Source of the DNA: Clostridiales bacterium
GTDB taxonomy: Bacteria > Bacillota > Clostridia > Lachnospirales > WQUN01
Reading direction: 5' to 3'
Length of the DNA stretch: 33,694 nt
Assembly (NCBI GenBank): GCA_031263155.1
Contig: JAISGK010000011.1
Span: 1 to 33,694 of the forward strand
In this document: one piece after another, positions 15,899 to 28,582 of the stretch
How the letters are laid out: every line of letters starts with the position of its first letter
Numbering within the stretch: position 1 is the stretch's first letter
Notes under the pieces: generated by a model
Database searches by the model: none
What the model was told of the DNA's origin: nothing
What the model saw: only the letters and a program-made list of their open reading frames with translations
Program-made: the position numbers and the translations under genes

Positions 15899-15978
15899 TG
15901 TCCCACCGCTATCGCCCAAACCCACTAAAATCAAAAAGGAAGCCCATATTACGGACTCCCAATTTGACATGCACATAT
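15899..15978. repeat. Direct repeat copy A: relic of a tRNA-downstream terminator region
   Basis: This 80-base segment closely matches 27312-27391 in the same orientation. Nearly identical blocks include AAAATCAAAAAGGAAGCCC and TTGACATGCACATAT. On the minus strand it folds as GGGAGTCC...GGGCTTCC followed by T5, a terminator hairpin (15938-15960). Its stem differs from copy B by changes that keep pairing through G-U wobbles. In copy B it is the terminator of two tRNA genes; here no tRNA is found beside it, although a weak resemblance to the tRNA-Leu 3' end continues to about 16010. The pair brackets the defence island. Confidence 0.75.
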
Positions 15979-16123
15979 GTCCATGATTAATTTTCTGCGG
16001 GTATCGGGACATTACTTAAACCATGTAAAGACCGCTCTGGCGCGCCGTTCAGCCATTCTAGAGCGTACGGAAACGCCTGAAAAGACCACTCAAGAAGATA
16101 AACTCTTTGGCGAGGATGTAAAA

Positions 16124-16622: not shown

Positions 16623-16766
16623 TTACTTCGTTTCCCATAGCAAATTTAACTGCATGACGCGGTAGATTTGCATTTGCTCTATGTTCGGTGATATATAGAC
16701 CAATGCGCCATTTTTGAACATGAGAACCTGAGTGCTATAATATTGTGGCTCACCCTTTTTAATTAT
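16623..16766 (-). pseudogene. Possible C-terminal extension of the methyltransferase, cut off by a homopolymer shift
   Basis: Just before the methyltransferase stop, the minus strand has a run of seven T (16776-16770). Reading six T instead continues the protein past DRFF as GIIKKGEPQYYSTQVLMFKN, then GALVYISPNIEQMQIYRVMQ, and on to a stop at 16623, about 48 extra residues. The composition is protein-like and there is no independent start codon with a ribosome site. It may be a real frameshift, a sequencing error, slippage, or a chance open frame. Confidence 0.4.
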
Positions 16767-17607
16767 CCCAAAAAAATCTATCCTGCGCTAAGTTCGTTAT
16801 AACTACTTCTCTACCCGACGTTGTTCCTCCCGCATTATGAGCAATGCCATATTCTTGAATATAAAAACTTTTAAATAAATCCCTAACAAGTGGGCAGTCA
16901 TCATAAGTGATTATCCATGGATATTTGGCATCTAGGTGCTTGAGAATAACTCGTTGAAGGTTAAGGTGGTCGCCCTCCGTAAAGAAGTTTGTATAAAGCC
17001 GACTACCTTTAACAACGTAAGGGGGATCAATGTTCAAGAACATCGGTGACTTCATCTTCATTAAGCTCATTCGAATGAGATATCCTGCCTCTTTGTTGTA
17101 GAGCTTAATTTTGCCTTTGAGTTGTGCTATAGCTTCTATCTTATATTTGATATCCTCTTTGTTAAATCGGCAGTCTACCTTGTAAGTTCCTGATTGGTCT
17201 AATCCGCCAATTGGCCCTCCTTTGATGACGCCGGAAAAGTTAACCCTATTCAGAAACAAGGTAGCAAAACCATCTGTAAGAGGGTCAACGTCTGTGCTTC
17301 TATAAATCTGCTTTTGCCGTTCGCGTTCTTCAATGGTAATCGGAGTATCAGTAATCAACCGGAGCAGGTCTTCGGTCTCGTTAAGAACTGCATACCAAAA
17401 ATGGTAAATATGAGAGTCGAAGTCATTTAGTATGGCCGAAGGAACAATGCCTTCACACAGTAATCCAATGCCTATACCAAAGCCACCGGCAAAAGGCTCG
17501 ACATACATCCTGTTGCCGTAGCCGTTAGCAATGATAAGGTTTTTAACCTTCTCATATATTTTTGATTTTCCACCCGGATATCGGAGTGGTGAAAGTGACT
17601 TAGCCAT
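16759..17607 (-). CDS. D12-class DNA N6-adenine methyltransferase
   Basis: A 282-residue methyltransferase of the Dam/DpnM type. LRYPGGKSKIYEKVKNLI opens the protein, MYVEPFAGGFGIGIGLL is the AdoMet-binding FxGxG motif (motif I, about residues 35-51), and MFLNIDPPYVVKGSRLY carries the catalytic DPPY (motif IV). The order I-then-IV is the alpha class. The recognition sequence cannot be read from the gene. It is the last gene of the minus-strand operon, 13 bases after the helicase stop, which suggests it marks host DNA as self for the helicase system. There is no adjacent restriction endonuclease gene of a recognised type. See the possible frameshift at its 3' end. Confidence 0.9.
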   Translation of the reverse strand: MAKSLSPLRYPGGKSKIYEKVKNLIIANGYGNRMYVEPFAGGFGIGIGLLCEGIVPSAILNDFDSHIYHFWYAVLNETEDLLRLITDTPITIEERERQKQIYRSTDVDPLTDGFATLFLNRVNFSGVIKGGPIGGLDQSGTYKVDCRFNKEDIKYKIEAIAQLKGKIKLYNKEAGYLIRMSLMKMKSPMFLNIDPPYVVKGSRLYTNFFTEGDHLNLQRVILKHLDAKYPWIITYDDCPLVRDLFKSFYIQEYGIAHNAGGTTSGREVVITNLAQDRFFWDN

Positions 17608-17620
17608 ACTATCCCTCTAT

Positions 17621-20600
17621 TTATAAGTTTCTGTATTTCATAAATGCGTTCGGCAACCAGTCGGTCAAATCATAAGGATTGAGATATATCTTAGTCCTTG
17701 TGTTTTCCGGCTTTTTGCGAAGCGCAGGAATGACTTCAAATGATACTGCCTTTGAACTTCCGTCTTCGGAAATCAGTTTTTGCAATGGTGTAAGGAAAGC
17801 GGTCTGTTCGCTTACTCCATACATATCTGGTAGTTTTCCATACTGTGCGTAATCAAGCAATTGCAAACCAAGCTGTCTATTAAAAAGTTGATGATGCCGT
17901 TGATTCCAATAGTTATCAAGGCAGTTCTTACAGGAACGCGAACATTCGCACCCAGTAAGAATACTTCTTGCTCTGTCGAGAACCTTGTCCAAAATTGAAC
18001 CAATCAACGATGAGTAACCTGCACCACTGGTAAGATTATCATAGAAAAACATCTCAATGTGCGGGTCATTGCTGTTCATTTTTCTTGGTCTCCATCCACC
18101 GCTGATCTCGTTATAGTCGATGTCTAACACCAGCGAGACCGCTTTTTTAAGCGCCTCGTGCAAAGTAGTCACAGATGCGCGCAATATACTCTTTTCTTCG
18201 GCACTGGAACTACCAACAAGCCTTGTTGAATCATATGATATATCCAACATAAACATATCTGTTAAGAACTCGTATCCTAAGAATATGCCTGTAGTAACAG
18301 TTCCGTCGTGACGGCATAAGCGATTATCGTGATATGGTTGAGAGAATGAAAATATTCCATTCCCGTTCGGTTCTGCGACTTCAGCACCGCCGCACTTTTT
18401 ACACACATTGAACCCGTTCTTACTCCTTCCCATGTTTACGGTTAGCACCTTCCTATCCGGAAGATTGGCAAAACGGATGCGGCTGTTTTCAAACGCATTC
18501 ATCCGAGTGTCTTCGGGAACATAGGAGTAGTAAGGGGCTTCAGCATAGGTATATTGCTCATCCTCGTCTTCGTATTTTACTTCTTCTCCTTTGACAGGTG
18601 AAAACCCCCACGGTCGCAACATTTTATTTATTACAATGGCAGCGCCGCAGTATGGACAGGTAGTTCGCTTTTCGTCATCCCTATCAAGCCCGAACCAATT
18701 ACACTCTGAGCAAATATAAATGTCTTTATAGTAGTCGGTATTTTTGAAATAAAACTCCGCCTGATTTGCTTCAAATCCTCTTGGACGGGGATTTACATAT
18801 ATACCACCGCTTTTGTAAATCTTTTTATCAATAGTAACGAATCGCCCAGGGGCGTACTCGCTCAAAGCGATAGCGATATCACGTTCAGGCGCGTACCGAA
18901 TATCTCTTGGAGCATTCCTACCTCGTTCAGATTCTTTTTCGACGAAGAATCTAACGACATTCTTTGGGAATGAGTAGGACGGAATAAATCCTTCCCTGTA
19001 GAAAACGTCAAACGCTGGAGTTTCCTTATCGTTGTTAATGTACTCATCACGCTTACCCTCAGCCAATACTGAAAGACTAATCTCTCTAAAGTGATTAATG
19101 GTATTGACAGTCGAAAGTCCTGATTCCTTTTCAAAAGAAAGGGCATATTCGATAAAGTTTTCTCCGTACTGCTCACAGAACGTAATAATTCCGATGTCAA
19201 CTATTCCGTCATACCGTCCGCTCATCGTTGGGGTGGACATAAACCCGTTAAGGGCAAGCATATTAACATGACGTTGCTTGATTTTGGGATTGTCGCGGTC
19301 AATCCACGGTTTACGCAAGGAGCCGGAAATCATTTCTTCTGGGTGTTGGAAATAATGACTGTCATGTGTTCCACCGGAAGCATAAGTTACAATAGTCGAA
19401 ATGCCAGCGTTTTTACGGCCTGCACGACCTGCCCTTTGTTGATAATTTTCACGCATTGGCGGTATATTTCGAAGCCCTACCGCTGTTAGAGATCCGATGT
19501 CTATACCAACCTCCATTGTGGTAGTGCAACTCAGAACGTCGATTGCGTCTTCGCCACGCTCTCCGGCATTAATATCTTGAAACCTCATTTCGTACTTTTC
19601 AGTGCGACTCCAAGTGTCGCTACGAACTTCCTTATGCGAAAGTTGCGCTGTATGTTCCTCTGTATCAATGGTGTGAATGCTCTCATTTTTTTGAAGTGCG
19701 GTCAACACTGGGGTTCTCCAAAAATCGAATCGCGCCAAATCCGATTTACCGATTGGAGCTAAATCGGTCGAATCGAAACAAGCACCGCAGTAATCACCAA
19801 TTTTGAATGGCGAGAGTTTGCCGCACTTGATACAGCGATACCATATGAAATCATTCTTAGCTAATTCAATTTTAACGGCACTCAGCTTGATATAATGACG
19901 ATTTGCAGGTGATGGAGCAAAGAATAAGTCTCGTATTTTTCCCACAATCTTATTCATAGTGTTGTTATCAAAGCTGAGCAATTCCTGAATCCTCTGTAGG
20001 AAGCCTTTATCCAAAGATGCAAAAAAATCACAACTTAATCCAAATATCTGATTTTTACTTCGCCCGGGTAACCCCTTACGCACATCATCTTGAATGGTTT
20101 CGCCCAAAGCCGCACTATCATCCATGACGTCCCAAAATAGCAAAACAAGCAACTGATAAAGCGTGGTTTTATCTACACTTATGTCGTATTCGTGTTCCAA
20201 ATCGTCTATGCAATCGTCAAGAACCTCCGACAGCGGAGCTAAAAAGCCCAAACCGATATCTTTGAACGAACGTGGACTTTCCGTGAAAAATGTTAGTAAT
20301 TGCTCATAATAATCGTCCGGTATAGAGCGATAATCACCCGCAAGAGCGGTATAATCAATGGTTCTGCCTCTTCTTTCGGCTCTTGCAAGTGAAGAAACAG
20401 TTTTTCGCATATCGCCCGAAAATATTTCTTTACTTTTACCGCTGAAGAAAGTCAGGTTGTTCTGTATACATACAGCTATAAACGCCGGATATAGGTTAGC
20501 CAGAGGGTGCTCGTCGCCATCGCCTTCAAGCAAGCGCGAAGCAAGTATTACTGCTTGTCGGAACGCATCAGCATCGGAAGACTTGGATAAATCCAAAGCC

Positions 20601-22822
20601 AACTTCGCAGCATTCTGGCGAGAGTCGGAGAATAGCAGCACCTTTCTTCCTTCGTTAATAAATTCAGCCTTCTTCGGGGGCTGAAGCTCGAATTGTGCTT
20701 TTGTAAGATTATAGAATGGTATGTTTCCCTTAGTGGCCAAGTCCACAGGTTTCTTTAAGGGCATAGATTTCTTGCATTTCGGGCACACCCCAAAATTGAA
20801 GGACTGCGTCTTATTATCGAATTTTTCGCTGTAAACAACAGGGAGCAGTGTATCATCTTCTTGCGGGAAGATATATAATTTCCCCGTCAATGGGTCAAGT
20901 GAACCCATTTTGTCGTTCTTTCGCCTTTGATAATTTTGCGGGACAACATATAGCAACATCTCTTTTAGAGAGTTCGTATCTCCGTTTAGTCCACGCTGCG
21001 GGAAAACATACCAATAAGGTTGACCTTCCGTTTTTTGAACATAGACGCGAAGATACAGGGCTCCGCATTTTATATGGTTAACCAGTTCATAAATCCTGCC
21101 ACCGCATTCGCACTTGTCCCTCGGAATGGAGATTACTCTGCCAAGAGATAACTTTTCTCTATCAGAGTGCTTCGCACAAGTGCATTTCGGATTTGAACAG
21201 GCATACAATCCCTGCAATCCACGAAGGAACATATGCAGCCTTACTGGAAACAGAATGTTTCCGTCTTTGGCAGCAAGAGAAACCAATACCAACAGAGCGT
21301 CGAGAGCCTTGTCACCACCCGCTTTGTTGCCAAACAAAGCTTCTTTTATTTCACTGTATGACTTCGCTCCATCACGACACAGTTTATTCAGGATGACAAA
21401 TGCTTCGTACCTTGGCAAATTGTCATATAACCATGCCTGTATTTGCTCCAAACTATAGCAAACGGGCAGGTCGATATGGAATACTGCTTTTGCAAATGCC
21501 CGAATTCTTGTTTCTATAGCTTTTCCTTGTACTTGGTCTGTCCCGATAGATATTAATGCTTCTATGTCTGTTTTGATTTTCGACTTTTCTGCAACAGGTT
21601 CTTTAGAGCCGAACAAGAACTCGCAAGACGAAGCATCTTTATCAGTCAGCTCCGTATAGAAATCATTTATTGCAGTCGGGTCTCCTTGCGGCATACTCGC
21701 CGTTGTCAAAATAAACTGCACTCGCTCTTTTGTGATTCCTAAACGATAAAACAGGCGCTCTAACAAGAGGGCAATTTCTCCACCCGCTGAGCCGCGATAC
21801 ATATGAGCCTCATCCAACACAATAAGTAATTTATTGTCGACTGAGGAATCAAGCCATTCCTTTGTTCTATACCATATGTTAGATTCCCGTTGCCGCATGA
21901 GCATATACTCTAACATCGAGTAGTTTGTAATCAGGATATCTGGCGGGTAATTTTGCATCTCGAATCTGGTAATAAACTCCGCATCATATGGAGAGGGTTT
22001 GTGAATGTTATTCTCAAGATTTTCAATAAAGACTTCCAGTCCATTTACACCAAACCGAGCAGGGTACTTATTAATGCTATTCAAGCCATTAATATTGTTG
22101 AGTTGGCGACGCTGCGTATCAGCATCAGCGTTCTCGTCTACAAGATAGTTCTCTCGGAAAGTGGCCGCTAATTCTTTGCTGCTTGTTGATTTTGGGTTGC
22201 CCGAATAGGGAGTTCTTCCTGTATACATCCCAAAATGCGGTATGCGCGTAGCCTGAGTATCCAACGTGAATATCTCTCGAAATTTTTCTCCGCCGATAAT
22301 TTTTCTAAAACGAGCTAACTGGTCAGAAACGAGGGCATTCATAGGATATATTATCAGCGTCCTAACTGCCTCTTGCTTGAATTGCTTCGGGCGATTTTTG
22401 GCTTCGTCAAAGCACTTTGCAATTATCGGCCACAAAAAGCATTCAGTCTTTCCAGAACCAGTACCAGTGGAAACAAACAGATCTCGTCCTGATAAAAAAT
22501 GTTCCAGCGCAAAAACCTGATGCTCAAACGGGTCAGGAAAAATACCAATATTTTCTTTGATTAGCTTGGATAATGATTCTTTGATCCCTGGTTTAATAAG
22601 GGAAGAATTCACTATACCATTGGGGATTTTTTTATACGAAGCCGAAGTCTCGATATAAGGTTCACGGGCAATATTGGTATGTCCTGAACATAATTCTCCT
22701 AACAAGTCATCGACATACAGCAACAACGTCTCGCTGTTAGCAAGATAATCTGATTTTATGTAGTTTCTCAGTCTATCGCGGATCGCCTGATAATATTGCT
22801 GAACTCCGTTTGCGCTATTCAT
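17621..22822 (-). CDS. Giant DEAH-box helicase with DUF1998-type C-terminus (DruE/DpdJ/MrfA-like)
   Basis: A 1733-residue protein from the ATG at 22822, which has AGGAGG seven bases upstream and overlaps the previous gene by eight bases. Helicase motifs: [17 protein letters not shown] (Q motif), [12 protein letters not shown] (Walker A, about 119-129), [17 protein letters not shown] (Ia), [12 protein letters not shown] (DEAH, about 337-340), FILTTASMP (III), and, after an insertion of some 700 residues, [12 protein letters not shown] (V) and [10 protein letters not shown] (VI, about 1129-1137). The insertion and C-terminus have several Cys-pair zinc sites (CIKCGK...CGAC, CSECNW...CPYC). The end, [17 protein letters not shown] then [15 protein letters not shown], is the DUF1998 zinc region. 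This architecture is typical of Lhr/YprA-group superfamily 2 helicases used in antiphage systems. Confidence 0.9.
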
Positions 22823-23834
22823 GGATACGTCCTCCTTTGGCCTCAAGACCAATATTCTTAAGCACAGCAAGCACCTCTGCTAAGATGCGGTTTTTTATGA
22901 TGAAATTCGCTTTATCGAAAGCCGATCGCTCCGGCCACGATAGTAGTAGCAGGAGATAATATTCGCGGTTTGGTAGGTGACCTCCTACCCTGATTTTGGA
23001 GTGTTCTTCATCAAGTTTGGTGATCCAGACTCTTATCGGGTTCCCATAGTGGTTCTTCATTGCGAAATAGAGTCGCCTGTATTCGTAAGAAGTAAAATTG
23101 TCAGATTGCGATTCTACTGTCTCGTCCGCAAATCTAATGCCGTTTGGAGTTTTCATTACTCGGTAGAAAGGACCCGTTTCAAACCTACGTGCCACGGAGC
23201 AATCAGTCTCCAAATTCTTGTTCCAAGACTTAGATAGTACGCTTTTTACTAATGGATTAAAAAACTCCAATTCGTGAAGTTCAATATCTCTTTCATAAAA
23301 ATCTATCGGGTCAAATTGCGCCTTAAAGTATTCCTCGCAAGTTAAATCATCCCGGATTAAGAAGTCTTTAACGTCCACTGCATATGAAGTGGATGATGAA
23401 AAGACTCCCAGCCCATTAACTGTGTAAACTTCGTTCGGAAGACCAAAAAATAATGTGTCTTTTCCAAGAGGCATGCATCTCCCGAAATTAGTTAATTTAT
23501 TATGATTGTTTTCATCTGTAAGCAAGTGCCCTGTTTCCTCATACGTTCTACGAATAAAAACGGAAATGTTTCTTGGCTGACTGCTTGTATCTACAAAATA
23601 ATCCGAAACAAATGGGAACAACCCAGTATATCGTTCCAACAGTTCATTAAGCACAATGGTCTGATTATGTTTTGTTGTGCCTTTTTTGATCCCCGTTTTA
23701 TTTCGCCCAGTATTTAAGCACCATTGCCCCAATGCTGAGTAACAGAGCCTACAGGTAAAAGCCGCATCAGACTCATTGCGGAAGCGTGGAATGTTCATGT
23801 CCCTTGACATTGCTTTCAACAACTCATTATTCAA
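22815..23834 (-). CDS. Unrecognised defence-operon protein, about 339 residues
   Basis: I do not recognise this family. I chose the TTG at 23834, which overlaps the preceding stop as TTGA and has GGAGGTGG directly upstream; a start at 23870 would lie inside the previous gene. The N-terminal part contains [20 protein letters not shown], then [20 protein letters not shown]. The middle is rich in aromatic and acidic residues ([20 protein letters not shown]) and the C-terminal part is mixed alpha/beta ([20 protein letters not shown]). No membrane segment or signal peptide. Tight coupling on both sides suggests it is a fixed partner of the helicase, perhaps an adaptor or nuclease subunit. Confidence 0.75.
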
Positions 23835-25414
23835 AAAAACCACCTCCTGAATAAATCCTTGTAGGGACATCTTCCATTATCGCTTATGTACTTATTTAGT
23901 CGCTCAGAAACGACGAGGGGAACGGTGCCAAGCACATCCATACAGTAAGGAAGAATATCGAAAGCTAATAATCGACACATGCTTGCTTCATCTGAAACCA
24001 ACGAACTTTTATACAAAGACAGTTCGTTGCACACAGCAACTTCGCCAAGAATTTCCTTGAGAAACGGAGCCCAAAGCGTATCAGAGGCAATGTTAGAAAT
24101 TGTTGCTTCGACCTCCTCTACAGATGACGGGTCTTCCGTCAAGTCGCACTCTTCGGTAAAGGCTTTTATGCGGTTAACATTCAGGTAGTAGCAATATTTC
24201 AAGAATTCTTCAGGAACGTATCGAAGAGTCTTATCATATGCGACTGTTAAGAAAATTATCTTATCTCTATGCCCTTCACAGATTATAGAAAGCATAACCT
24301 CGTCAAAATTTCCGATAAAGTTGTCCAAGCACACAATGCGATTCTTAATAGACAAAAACTCATCAATTGCTTCTACTGAAATATCTGGAGCACACACAAA
24401 TGTGGCCACATTAGGCGAAGCTACAAGCGCATTCGAAACACACTTCATAAGTGAAAAGCCTGTATACCGGCTAACAAGAATAGGCTTTCCAGCAAATAAA
24501 ATATCACACAAATAATCCTTGAGCAGAGAATAATATTCGGCGCTCGTTTCTATATCCAAATCCTCTAAGTTGTAGCCCAAGTAATCCCGGAATTCATCTA
24601 TATCCTTTGGGCGTTTTGACTTTGCAGAAGCTGCTTGCTCGACAAGTTTGGCGCTTTTCTTGTTTTCAAATTCTTCTCTGATTCTGGTTTCAAGTTGCTG
24701 CTGAGCTAAAGTGACGGACAACTCTGCTTCCAATTGCTTTATTGCTACATCGCGCTCTTGAATCATCTTTTCTAATGTCTTGATTTCCTGCTCTTTGGCG
24801 TAGACAACTTCTGTTAGCCTTTCAAGCTCGTCATTAGTACGTTTGAGTGCTTTGATTTCGACAGAGCGTTCTATCAGCTTTTTTCTCGATTTATCCAACT
24901 CAACTTGAATGCGTTCTATCTCGTTTTTATATCTACCTTGCTCCTGCTCCTTTGCATTCAAAGATTTTTTTAGTTCTTTATCCTCTATATCTAAATCTCT
25001 AATCCTTCTGATGCTTTGGCGAAGTAGAGAAATATATTCTTCGGATTGTTCTTCTCCTGTCAGCTTAAAAAAGATTTTTATTTCGTCTACAAAAAAGCAG
25101 AATGGTAAAGTTTGTAACCACGCAGACTCTTTACTTTCACCTTTATCCGTTATAAGAGAAATCTCTCGTTGTATCTCCTCAATCCATCGACTAATGTGAT
25201 TCTCAATGAATGAGGAAATAAATGGTTTATTGCGACTTCTAAACAGTACGGCACTTACCTGTTCTTGGCTTCTTAGACTTGTCGCTCGAAATCCAGGCAT
25301 TATTTTTGCAAAGTCTTTAGGGTATCTCTTAAAATACCATACGGACTCCTGTAGTGGAATCACCGAGCAGACATATTTGAGTTCATCATCAGTCAGCATA
25401 GGAAGGTAGTTCAT
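23831..25414 (-). CDS. Coiled-coil protein with a degenerate AAA+-like C-terminal half
   Basis: 527 residues; the ATG overlaps the preceding stop as ATGA. Residues 1-130 are globular. Residues 140-255 form a long coiled coil (ELKKSLNAKEQEQGRYKNEI and onward). The C-terminal half follows the layout of a McrB-like AAA+ module: AGKPILVSRYTGFSLMKCVS stands where a Walker A would be but lacks GKT/S, NRIVCLDNFIGNFDEVML stands at Walker B with Asp but no DE pair, and IIFLTVAYDKTLRYVPEEFL then KYCYYLNV resembles sensor 1 and the following strand. This reading is inference from pattern only. If right, it is a catalytically dead ATPase fold serving as scaffold or sensor for the helicase. Confidence 0.7.
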   Translation of the reverse strand: MNYLPMLTDDELKYVCSVIPLQESVWYFKRYPKDFAKIMPGFRATSLRSQEQVSAVLFRSRNKPFISSFIENHISRWIEEIQREISLITDKGESKESAWLQTLPFCFFVDEIKIFFKLTGEEQSEEYISLLRQSIRRIRDLDIEDKELKKSLNAKEQEQGRYKNEIERIQVELDKSRKKLIERSVEIKALKRTNDELERLTEVVYAKEQEIKTLEKMIQERDVAIKQLEAELSVTLAQQQLETRIREEFENKKSAKLVEQAASAKSKRPKDIDEFRDYLGYNLEDLDIETSAEYYSLLKDYLCDILFAGKPILVSRYTGFSLMKCVSNALVASPNVATFVCAPDISVEAIDEFLSIKNRIVCLDNFIGNFDEVMLSIICEGHRDKIIFLTVAYDKTLRYVPEEFLKYCYYLNVNRIKAFTEECDLTEDPSSVEEVEATISNIASDTLWAPFLKEILGEVAVCNELSLYKSSLVSDEASMCRLLAFDILPYCMDVLGTVPLVVSERLNKYISDNGRCPYKDLFRRWFF

Positions 25415-26853
25415 ATACGCCCCTCCTCGATAAAGCGTTTCGCAGCAGAGTTTATCCTGCCTGTATTCTCACAGGATTTTATGTATTGAAACGCTATAAG
25501 ACTGAGGGCAAGCGACTCATAGTCGCCCCGGTTAAATTGCTCTTCTCTCTTGTAGTACATCAAAACGTCTTGGAGTATGCGTTCACTATCCCACGATACA
25601 CCATTGTTTGCAGAAGTAATGATACGGTCAAGATAGCCAAACGAGAAATGACGTACCTCGCTTGTAGCGGTCAACAATACAGTCGCACCCCGGCTCATGG
25701 GAGAAACGCCAGAACGATTGAATAGATACGTCGCGTTGTCAGGCGCTATGAATTTCTTTGAAGACTCTTTTGTGAGAAAAATAGTGTCATATTCACTTAT
25801 CAAGCCTTCATGCTTGGCAATCGACAATTCAACATTCTTTCTATACAGCTTAGTCCTAACATTTACCAAGATTTTTGAAACACCACCATCAAGTCTAATA
25901 ATGTCCTTCGAACTGACATTTATATTACCGTGCGGCTGCATTTCAAAAGAAGAGAATATGTACACACTTTTTTCATTGATGGATAGTGTGTCATTGATTT
26001 GCGGCGATGGCGGCCATAGCAAGGTAAGCGTTTCATTGGCTTCTAATTGATACTTCCATGTTTTAAGCTGCTGCTCGACTTTTGCAGTCTTGCTTGTAAA
26101 TGTAACAATGGCACCGGAAAAGTCTCTATTCATGGTACTAAATCTAAATGTGCGCCCTACTTTCACATCGCTCTGAAAGCTCAACGTGTAGTACGGATGC
26201 GTAAACACAAAGAGGTATGGGGTGTTAGTGTATAGCGTTTCAGTTCGCACAAGTTTCGCCTGAAAAACATTATCATCACCATCTGCCTGTATTTTAAAGA
26301 ATGACGGGTACAGATTCCCGCGTCCATCTTTGCGAAACACTTCATATTTCCGCTGCTTAGAATCATTTGTAGAAGAAACATTATATTCCCACGAAAATTC
26401 ATTTATGGGAATTAGCTCAGATACATCAGGGATGAATCTGCTGCCGTTTATCGGAATTGAAATTATAGGTTTGGAGGTAGATGCTGTTCCAACCTGAAAA
26501 AATGCCCCACTCTGTTCATATGATAAAATTTCGTCTGCACTAAATTTCACGCCTATGCTGAACATTTTTGTTGCGTTCGAAAAATAGAACTCTATCTTAT
26601 CTCGTACATTTCGGCGAGAAACAGCATCGCGGATAATCGCATTACGATAACCAAGATAGTTTTCGCATTCAACATTGTTGTTGCCGCTGCGATGTCTGAA
26701 GTGAGTGGCTTGGTTCCTGCTGTCGGCAGCACATAAATGTACTTCTTCCCAGCAACAAGCGCATTCATAACGATATGGCTCAAATCCACCGCTTTTTCCA
26801 GCAGCGTCAGCATCCACATAATCGGATAAAATCGTGTCGTATGCTTTCCGCAT
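25411..26853 (-). CDS. Defence-operon protein with CoiA-like N-terminal zinc motif
   Basis: 480 residues from the ATG at 26853, with GGGAGGG ten bases upstream. The N-terminus has YECACCWEEVHLC, then ATHFRHRSG and VECENYLG: a CxxC, HxxH and Cys set (Cys31/34, His51/54, Cys63) like the start of CoiA-like and related nuclease-associated proteins. The remaining 400 residues are beta-rich (SYEQSGAFFQVGTASTSKPI, YTLSFQSDVKVGRTFRFSTM) and I do not recognise them; no nuclease motif is visible. It is the first large gene of the operon and its stop overlaps the coiled-coil gene. A zinc-dependent nucleic-acid or target-recognition role is plausible but unproven. Confidence 0.72.
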   Translation of the reverse strand: MRKAYDTILSDYVDADAAGKSGGFEPYRYECACCWEEVHLCAADSRNQATHFRHRSGNNNVECENYLGYRNAIIRDAVSRRNVRDKIEFYFSNATKMFSIGVKFSADEILSYEQSGAFFQVGTASTSKPIISIPINGSRFIPDVSELIPINEFSWEYNVSSTNDSKQRKYEVFRKDGRGNLYPSFFKIQADGDDNVFQAKLVRTETLYTNTPYLFVFTHPYYTLSFQSDVKVGRTFRFSTMNRDFSGAIVTFTSKTAKVEQQLKTWKYQLEANETLTLLWPPSPQINDTLSINEKSVYIFSSFEMQPHGNINVSSKDIIRLDGGVSKILVNVRTKLYRKNVELSIAKHEGLISEYDTIFLTKESSKKFIAPDNATYLFNRSGVSPMSRGATVLLTATSEVRHFSFGYLDRIITSANNGVSWDSERILQDVLMYYKREEQFNRGDYESLALSLIAFQYIKSCENTGRINSAAKRFIEEGRI

Positions 26854-26924
26854 TATGCAAGCCCTCCCTTCAACAAACTTGGTTTCCGTCGCTAGACGTA
26901 TTTATCTAACAAAATAAAAGGCAA

Positions 26925-27128
26925 TTATAAATCCAAAATAAAACTGCCATCTTTGTCTATAACGAGGAATTCTTGACCCATTATTTCTGCGGTTTCCTTG
27001 CCGAAAACCTGCCGCGCCAGAACAGCCCGAACGTAAGCGGCAGTAGAAACCTTGTACTTGGCAGCCTCGACTTTGACAGCATCATAAAGCTGTTGAGATA
27101 ATTTTATATTCAATGTGGCTTCTTTCAT
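26925..27128 (-). CDS. Ribbon-helix-helix regulator of the defence operon
   Basis: 67 residues from the ATG at 27128 (GAGGAG nine bases upstream; an in-frame GTG at 27137 is a weaker choice). EATLNIKLSQQLYDAVKVEA then AAKYKVSTAAYVRAVLARQV is a ribbon-helix-helix fold: a beta strand followed by two helices. The short C-terminal tail (GQEFLVIDKDGSFILDL) is acidic. It is transcribed in the same direction as the defence operon, 71 bases ahead of it, from a promoter whose -10 lies inside a 20-bp palindrome. Autorepression that also silences the whole operon is the simplest model. It could instead be an orphan antitoxin. Confidence 0.75.
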   Translation of the reverse strand: MKEATLNIKLSQQLYDAVKVEAAKYKVSTAAYVRAVLARQVFGKETAEIMGQEFLVIDKDGSFILDL

Positions 27129-27152
27129 AGCAAACACTCCTCATAGCAAATC

Positions 27153-27189
27153 TTGTAGTAATTATACTACAAACTATTGTAGCTGTCAA
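27153..27189 (-). promoter_or_regulatory. Defence operon promoter with palindromic operators
   Basis: Minus-strand TTGACA (27189-27184) and TATAAT (27166-27161), both perfect, spacing 17. A perfect palindrome TTGTAGTA-ATTA-TACTACAA (27153-27172) covers the -10 box, and a third half-site TTGTAG at 27177-27182 adds a second inverted pair within the spacer. Repeated half-sites on a strong promoter are typical of ribbon-helix-helix autorepression. Confidence 0.85.
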
Positions 27190-27311: not shown

Positions 27312-27391
27312 TGTCCCACGGCTACGACAAAAACCCTTTAAAATCAAAAAGGAAGCCCGTTTTTTAGGCTCCCAACTTGACATGCACATAT
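27312..27391. repeat. Direct repeat copy B, downstream of tRNA-Leu
   Basis: Counterpart of 15899-15978, same orientation, both spanning exactly 80 bases between matching end blocks. This copy sits right behind the tRNA-Leu gene and contains its terminator, so it is the probable original. The 11.4 kb between the copies carries the defence operon and the small HTH gene. Confidence 0.75.
27346..27373 (-). terminator. Terminator of the tRNA-Lys/tRNA-Leu transcript
   Basis: Minus-strand GGGAGCC (27373-27367) pairs with GGCTTCC (27357-27351) with one wobble, followed by TTTTT. It ends transcription coming from the two tRNA genes. Confidence 0.78.
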
Positions 27392-27408
27392 CTCGTTAAT
27401 TATCTTCA

Positions 27409-27492
27409 TGCGGATGACAGGACTTGAACCTGCACGAAGTTGCCCCCACAAGAACCTGAATCTTGCGCGTCTGCCAATTCCGCCACATCCGC
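27409..27492 (-). tRNA. tRNA-Leu, anticodon CAG
   Basis: 84 bases. The acceptor stem GCGGATG/CATCCGC is perfect with discriminator A. The anticodon stem-loop is CAAGA-TTCAGGT-TCTTG, anticodon CAG. A long variable arm marks a class II tRNA, and the T-loop is GTTCAAGTC. No CCA is encoded. Confidence 0.95.
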
Positions 27493-27836: not shown

Positions 27837-28172
27837 ATGAATATGGAATTTATGCCAATGCGAGCACTTTCAAGAGAGCCGCAAACCGTCATCAGTCAAT
27901 TACAACGTGATGGCGAACTGGTGGTGACCAATAATGGTCAGCCCATTATTCTAATGATAGACTTGGCGGGCAGAGACTTAGTAGAAGTTGTTAATATTGT
28001 TCGCAATAAATGTACAGCATCATCGCCTGATACCACAGGCAAAACCCAGCGAGCAGCCTTTGAAAGATTTTTTGCGGCGATAGGGGCTATTGATGATGAA
28101 GCAATTACTGACGCTGATATAGCTCAATTTGAAAACAATCAAGTCAATATCGGAAGGGATCTGGACCTATGA
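27837..28172 (+). CDS. Phd/YefM-like antitoxin
   Basis: 111 residues. The N-terminal half, MRALSREPQTVISQLQRDGE and LVVTNNGQPIILMIDLAGRD, is the Phd/YefM DNA-binding fold. The C-terminal half (RAAFERFFAAIGAIDDEAIT) is the toxin-binding region. GAAAGGAG precedes the ATG by four bases. The stop overlaps the toxin start as ATGA. It probably autoregulates through the inverted repeat in the promoter. Confidence 0.85.
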   Translation: MNMEFMPMRALSREPQTVISQLQRDGELVVTNNGQPIILMIDLAGRDLVEVVNIVRNKCTASSPDTTGKTQRAAFERFFAAIGAIDDEAITDADIAQFENNQVNIGRDLDL

Positions 28173-28582
28173 TTTATGTACTGGATAGCAATATTGTTTC
28201 TTACATGCTTAAAAAAGAGGCTGAGGTTATTGCTAATTATCGCCGTACAGCCGATCAAGGCCACGAGTTTATTATTTTACCGATTGTCCGATACGAGGTT
28301 GAAAGATGGCTGATGGAGCAGAAACTCAAAAAAATGCTAACTCAATTTGAAATTTTATGTGAAGAAGCCGGAACATTAGAATTTAGCCGACCGGTGTGGC
28401 AGCAAGCGGCACTCATTTATGCTGATCTTTCACAGCGTGGCGAACTGATTGATGACGCTGATATTTTTATCGCCGCTTTCTGCCTGACATACGAATATAC
28501 CCTTGTAACCAATAACCTCCGCCACTTTGAGCGCATTGACAAATTACATACCGTTAACTGGAAAAGTAATGCGACATTTTAA
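28169..28582 (+). CDS. PIN-domain toxin (VapC-like endoribonuclease), intact
   Basis: 137 residues. MIYVLDSNIVSYMLKKEAEV supplies the first catalytic Asp, RYEVERWL the conserved Glu, and LIDDADIFIAAFCLTYEYTL the C-terminal acidic cluster, ending LHTVNWKS. All expected acidic residues are present. It is the closest intact relative in the window of the frameshifted gene at 4935-5350, sharing the start MIY(A/V)LD(T/S)NI and the end VNWKS. It is presumably an RNA-cleaving toxin neutralised by the upstream antitoxin. Confidence 0.88.
   Translation: MIYVLDSNIVSYMLKKEAEVIANYRRTADQGHEFIILPIVRYEVERWLMEQKLKKMLTQFEILCEEAGTLEFSRPVWQQAALIYADLSQRGELIDDADIFIAAFCLTYEYTLVTNNLRHFERIDKLHTVNWKSNATF

Follow-up and report, generated by a model that had tools for sequence, protein, structure and literature searches.

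Druantia type I is an anti-virus system encoded by druABCDE, and Druantia type II is encoded by DruM-F-G-E, where DruM is a cytosine methylase. Both types have been described to encode inactivated McrB-like proteins, the one of type II with an extended coiled coil, and the DruE of type I was reported to have an inactivated C-terminal nuclease (PMC12458937). In the case of Druantia type III, DruE was reported as a helicase-nuclease effector that acts on replication intermediates (PMC13192584). Here, we describe an operon found in a stretch of 33,694 nucleotides, which as a whole is called the window in the following. Its genes make it almost certain that this operon represents a Druantia type I variant.

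Operon layout and protein identities

Inspection of the open reading frames showed six genes on the minus strand, in a block at 16759-27189 (Table 1). The five large genes are tightly coupled, with successive overlaps of ATGA, TTGA and 8 bases followed by a 13-base gap, exactly as an earlier sequence-only reading had described them. The motifs it had listed were also found, namely GSGKT, DEAH, the zinc-binding MZB/DUF1998 region (PF09369) and the D12 class of the methyltransferase (PF02086). Regarding translation starts, druD begins at a TTG with a good ribosome site, and a longer ATG reading frame extends to 23870. In the case of druE, the start is an ATG preceded by AAAGGAGG, a ribosome-binding sequence, and the mechanical reading frame begins at a TTG at 22870.

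Table 1. Positions of the operon genes, the leader elements and the flanking repeats in the window.
Feature	Position	Strand	Remarks
Imperfect 112-nt direct repeat, copy 1	15899..16010	.	76% identical to 27312-27423
D12-class (Dam-like) N6-adenine DNA methyltransferase	16759..17607	-	PF02086; 13 bases after druE
DruE	17621..22822	-	1733 aa from ATG; PADLOC DruE1; Pfam DEAD, Helicase_C, MZB
DruD	22815..23834	-	339-351 aa by start choice; PADLOC DruD1 and structure model
DruC-position protein	23831..25414	-	527 aa; coiled coil and degenerate AAA+; weak DruC1 match
DruB	25411..26853	-	480 aa; PADLOC DruB1; CoiA-like N-terminal zinc site
RHH/CopG-like small protein	26925..27137	-	70 aa; alternative ATG start at about 27128; weak Pfam matches
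Perfect 8-bp inverted repeat TTGTAGTA-TAAT-TACTACAA	27153..27172	.	Overlies the -10 box; candidate RHH operator
Predicted promoter TTGACA-17-TATAAT	27161..27189	-	Consensus match only, 12/12 bases; sigma-70-type
Imperfect 112-nt direct repeat, copy 2	27312..27423	.	Overlaps the 3' end of tRNA-Leu (27409-27492)

Three of the large proteins could be assigned with PADLOC models. DruE, a DEAH helicase of the YprA/MrfA family with an MZB/DUF1998 zinc region, matched DruE1 (PDLC00013) over its full length (1953 bits, residues 18-1748), the next best model being DruE2 with 624 bits. DrmA reached 42 bits over the helicase core, and the models of Druantia II-IV and of DpdJ scored far lower than DruE1. 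DruB matched DruB1 (PDLC00003) with 554 bits over positions 1-477 of 477. Its zinc site (C31, C34, H54 and C63) is an invariant C-C-H-C in alignments and resembles the N-terminus of CoiA; by profile comparison this region aligns with the canonical DruB of the P. putida operon at 85% probability. DruD matched DruD1 (PDLC00008) over its full length with 506 bits, and its C-terminus matches the canonical P. putida DruD at 90% probability, likewise by profile comparison. The predicted structure of DruD has a pLDDT of 89, and fold searches with it (Foldseek, VIA) gave only weak partial matches to winged-helix and PH-like folds, with Z at most 5.4. Searching PDB sequences with the DruB and DruD profiles yielded nothing useful.

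The gene in the druC position, between druB and druD, showed a different picture. Its product matched DruC1 (PDLC00006) only weakly, with 13 bits over the coiled coil, and hhalign gave no support for kinship with the P. putida DruC. An AlphaFold model (pLDDT 87, pTM 0.53, 29 sequences) predicts a helical head, a long coiled coil at 125-260, an AAA+-like domain at about 268-421 and a C-terminal helical part. Foldseek E-values for this model were weak, the best being 0.02. With VIA-align, many AAA+ proteins, including a MoxR-like ATPase (2r44) and RavA, superposed at Z of about 10, with an rmsd of 2.7-4.7 Å over 108-234 residues, and these scores fit a predicted AAA+ fold. No functional Walker A could be detected in the protein. 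A Walker-A-like string occurs in just 3 of 86 DruC-like sequences, where it looks incidental, so the P-loop is degenerate. The modelled coiled coil with a degenerate AAA+ domain agrees with the inactivated McrB-like proteins reported for Druantia (PMC12458937).

DruA (DUF4338, PF14236) was searched at several levels. There was no match in the genome of the window, which is 92% complete, in a search where the control panel was silent. No match was found either in the genomes behind 45 related loci, where both canonical plasmid loci were positive in the identical search, or in the flanking sequences fetched for the loci of this lineage. DruA is present at L005-L008, which are proteobacterial and haloarchaeal loci, and on four of the more distant viral contigs. 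Because DruA was sought and is lacking, the locus was filed as a Druantia-I-like variant and not as canonical type I.

The sequence-only reading had recognised none of DruA to DruD and had left the three accessory proteins without an assignment to a described system. This no longer holds for two of them, which are DruB and DruD by full-length matches in the described order; the coiled-coil protein keeps its weak score. The fold searches it had proposed were run for DruD and for the coiled-coil protein, and the AAA+ assignment came from VIA-align. It had also offered two identities, a divergent Druantia type or a new helicase-methyltransferase system, and had named a PADLOC model search among its checks. 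That search points to a described system in its known order, so the first identity stands. A new system with no relation to Druantia could still draw on the lack of DruA and on a DruC-position protein that fails the canonical model. It is contradicted by the full-length DruB, DruD and DruE matches and by the profile matches that tie DruB and DruD to the P. putida operon, and we regard it as very improbable.

The sixth gene encodes the small RHH protein. A predicted promoter and a palindrome lie upstream of it, an arrangement resembling an autoregulated leader; the RHH protein would probably be a local autoregulator acting through the palindrome. No homologue of the RHH gene was found at any related locus examined, and its membership in a conserved unit was therefore ruled out. 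Thus, of the six-gene operon in the sequence-only reading, the five large genes recur and the RHH gene is local. At L018, L019, L033 and L036, the slot upstream of druB that the RHH gene takes in the window is occupied by a small gene of the XRE helix-turn-helix type, which is similar to the N-terminal domain that C5 methylases of a sister clade carry as a fusion.

At the edges, the two copies of the 112-nt repeat bracket the operon and possibly represent an old island edge or a trace of integration. No integrase was found between the copies, and when relatives were searched for an empty integration site, the matches were mostly to tRNAs. Just past the tRNAs, on the opposite strand at 27837-28582, a small antitoxin-like gene is followed by a PIN-domain gene, a VapBC-like pair.

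Recurrence of the unit and its methyltransferases

Recurrence of the five-gene order in other genomes had been set as a check beforehand, and the order does recur in many. As the five large genes keep an identical order in these genomes, the unit goes beyond chance. In the case of G355, a genome of another class, the whole unit B-C-D-E-methyltransferase is present, with identities to the window of 44% for B, 46% for C, 58% for D, 77% for E and 66% for the methyltransferase. For a broader view, 80 DruE relatives were fetched by DruE alignment from a collection of 84,980 genomes, the loci thus being chosen for the similarity of their DruE to that of the window. Nearly all of them carry B-C-D-E, and in the window these genes follow one another on one strand in the order typical of Druantia type I. 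A scan of genome contigs with DruD as a single protein gave no match, its patterns being probably too specific.

On a quick DruE tree (93 sequences, with long-branch warnings), the loci with a D12 methyltransferase fall into one group: the gene is present at 22 of 28 loci within one clade and at none of the 65 outside. What remains unusual about the operon is this fixation of the enzyme throughout one clade, together with the missing DruA. The remaining six loci are L016, where the contig ends in druE, L020, where druE is cut short, and L021, L024, L027 and L029. A whole methyltransferase follows druE in 19 loci, counting the window, with gaps of 0-19 bases in 17 and of 53 and 131 bases in the other two. 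The hosts are mostly Bacillota and some Bacteroidota, several of them metagenome bins. In L015 (3018-3917) and L028 (2604-3467) the D12 gene is displaced 2-3 kb upstream of druB instead of following druE, and these copies are 40-42% identical to that of the window, though the DruE proteins are 76-77% identical.

The D12 enzyme has the catalytic DPPY, and its motifs are invariant in 19 homologues. It scored 320 bits against PADLOC PD-Lambda-5_B, to whose subfamily it belongs, and fell below the cut-off of NCBI's Dam model. The closest solved structures are 7m6b and DpnM (2dpm), the kinship with DpnM being distant. Across loci, distances of the methyltransferase correlate with those of DruE at a Spearman coefficient of 0.46 for all copies and 0.53 for adjacent copies, neither of which was reached in any of 2000 permutations; for DruB, DruC and DruD the coefficients are 0.92-0.96. 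The moderate value indicates that the enzyme is linked to the operon but more exchangeable than B, C and D.

Methylases of another class were found in a related DruA-less clade. There, a C5 cytosine methylase (PF00145, at 13 loci) or a type II endonuclease (at 11; Eco47II-like PF09553 or EcoO109I-like PF14511) was found at 15 loci, nine of which have both. These genes are mostly located directly upstream of druB and are co-directional. In L046, L047, L049, L050, L056, L057, L070, L083, L094 and relatives, DruB-C-D-E is preceded by genes for a C5 methylase and a type II endonuclease, and such loci look like Druantia attached to a whole restriction-modification system. In L053 (4011-4829) and L069 (3769-4575), an unnamed gene for 268-272 aa stands on the opposite strand between the C5 methylase and druB; it had no match in NCBIfam or PADLOC and might encode a restriction endonuclease that has so far escaped recognition.

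In a third DruA-less subclade, B-C-D-E is present and no adjacent methyltransferase was found, which implies that the core does not require methylation in all its forms. That other methyltransferases fill the slot in this subclade was unsupported, as no methylase family was among the 25 of 47 Pfam matches listed when 66 neighbours were scanned. Altogether, methylases appear to have joined this DruA-less lineage at least twice, with some members lacking one.

These patterns bear on a reading in which DruB-C-D-E would be a complete defence alone, and the D12 enzyme an accessory with a role in protecting the element, in tuning expression or against other restriction systems, dispensable for telling self from foreign DNA. 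The many DruA-less B-C-D-E loci without an adjacent methyltransferase fit it, as do the looser following of DruE, the displacement in L015 and L028 and the loci L021, L024, L027 and L029, in which no D12 gene was found. The close position after druE in most of one clade, and the fact that the sister clade is coupled separately to C5 methylases, argue against it. On balance, we consider an accessory methyltransferase unlikely.

Proposed mechanism

As an explanation of the whole, we favour with moderate confidence a Druantia type I variant that lacks DruA and is coupled to a methyltransferase, in which the D12 enzyme would provide self-marking. DruB, the DruC-like coiled-coil pseudo-AAA protein and DruD would probably be the sensing or assembly part and may form a complex. 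DruE would likely be the DNA-acting engine, an ATP-driven helicase or translocase on invading DNA. This division of labour is drawn by analogy with the DruE of Druantia III (PMC13192584). The methyltransferase in the operon suggests that self and foreign DNA may be told apart by methylation: most likely, the enzyme protects host DNA by methylating its own motif throughout the host genome, and perhaps it replaces the contribution of DruA in the canonical system. Self-marking would be the most economical reading of the methylase; like it, an antiphage function of the operon is inferred. No intact nuclease domain was recognised by Pfam in any of the five operon proteins.

Several points count against the favoured explanation. 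Firstly, a single further clear D12-class gene lies on a different contig of the host genome. Secondly, a methylase that tracks DruE only moderately could be a loosely held passenger. Thirdly, the third subclade does without an adjacent methylase, and the low DruC1 score without hhalign support leaves the DruC position weakly tied to the canonical protein.

D12/Dam enzymes are small, stand-alone modification enzymes. This speaks against a role in which the methyltransferase would modify invading DNA or act within an effector complex, as the PglX-type enzyme may in BREX-like systems, and so does the use of ordinary type II methylases with their own endonucleases in the sister clade. In its favour, the PglX-like methyltransferase of the related ARMADA is required for defence, beyond mere host viability (PMC12458937). 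We hold such a role to be improbable.

The DruB-C-D-E core might be a DNA-attack module that is gated by methylation and can be combined with various methyltransferases, D12 here and type II C5 restriction-modification there, with DruA as one of several routes to self/non-self discrimination. This is a possibility that we propose tentatively.

Comparison with described systems

DISARM, Dpd, ARMADA and Druantia II and III were ruled out as identities by scores and missing partners. With DISARM and ARMADA, the window shares a YprA-family helicase next to a DNA methyltransferase (PMC12458937). It differs from DISARM, which has a DrmA-type helicase, DrmB and the PLD nuclease DrmC, by the low DrmA score and the absence of any PLD domain found; of ARMADA, neither the BrxHII-like (BrxHII/RapA) helicase nor the PglX-like methyltransferase is in the operon. 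With PD-Lambda-5 it has in common a D12 methyltransferase of one subfamily, but that system has no Druantia genes.

Druantia type II resembles the window in combining a DruE-family helicase with a DNA methyltransferase and in its coiled-coil pseudo-McrB partner (PMC12458937). However, the window methylase is D12 and thus of another class than DruM, DruE2 scores well below DruE1, and neither DruF nor DruG was matched. Within the searchable literature, whose scope did not extend to the original Doron 2018 paper with its supplementary tables, we found neither a type I lineage described as lacking DruA and carrying a D12 methyltransferase nor a report of Druantia genes that follow type II restriction-modification genes.

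Compared with druABCDE, the window lacks DruA, has a D12 methyltransferase after druE and carries a protein in the DruC position that the canonical model does not match. Annotation that requires DruA or the canonical DruC model will, this suggests, miss or misfile a widespread Bacillota lineage. As a natural variant without DruA but with a methyltransferase in the operon, it offers a direct test of self/foreign discrimination in Druantia I. Druantia I itself is already known, and PADLOC models already fit the DruB, DruD and DruE of this clade. With the P. putida pKF715A locus (L005), the operon shares these three families, the B-C-D-E order and a coiled-coil protein in the C position.
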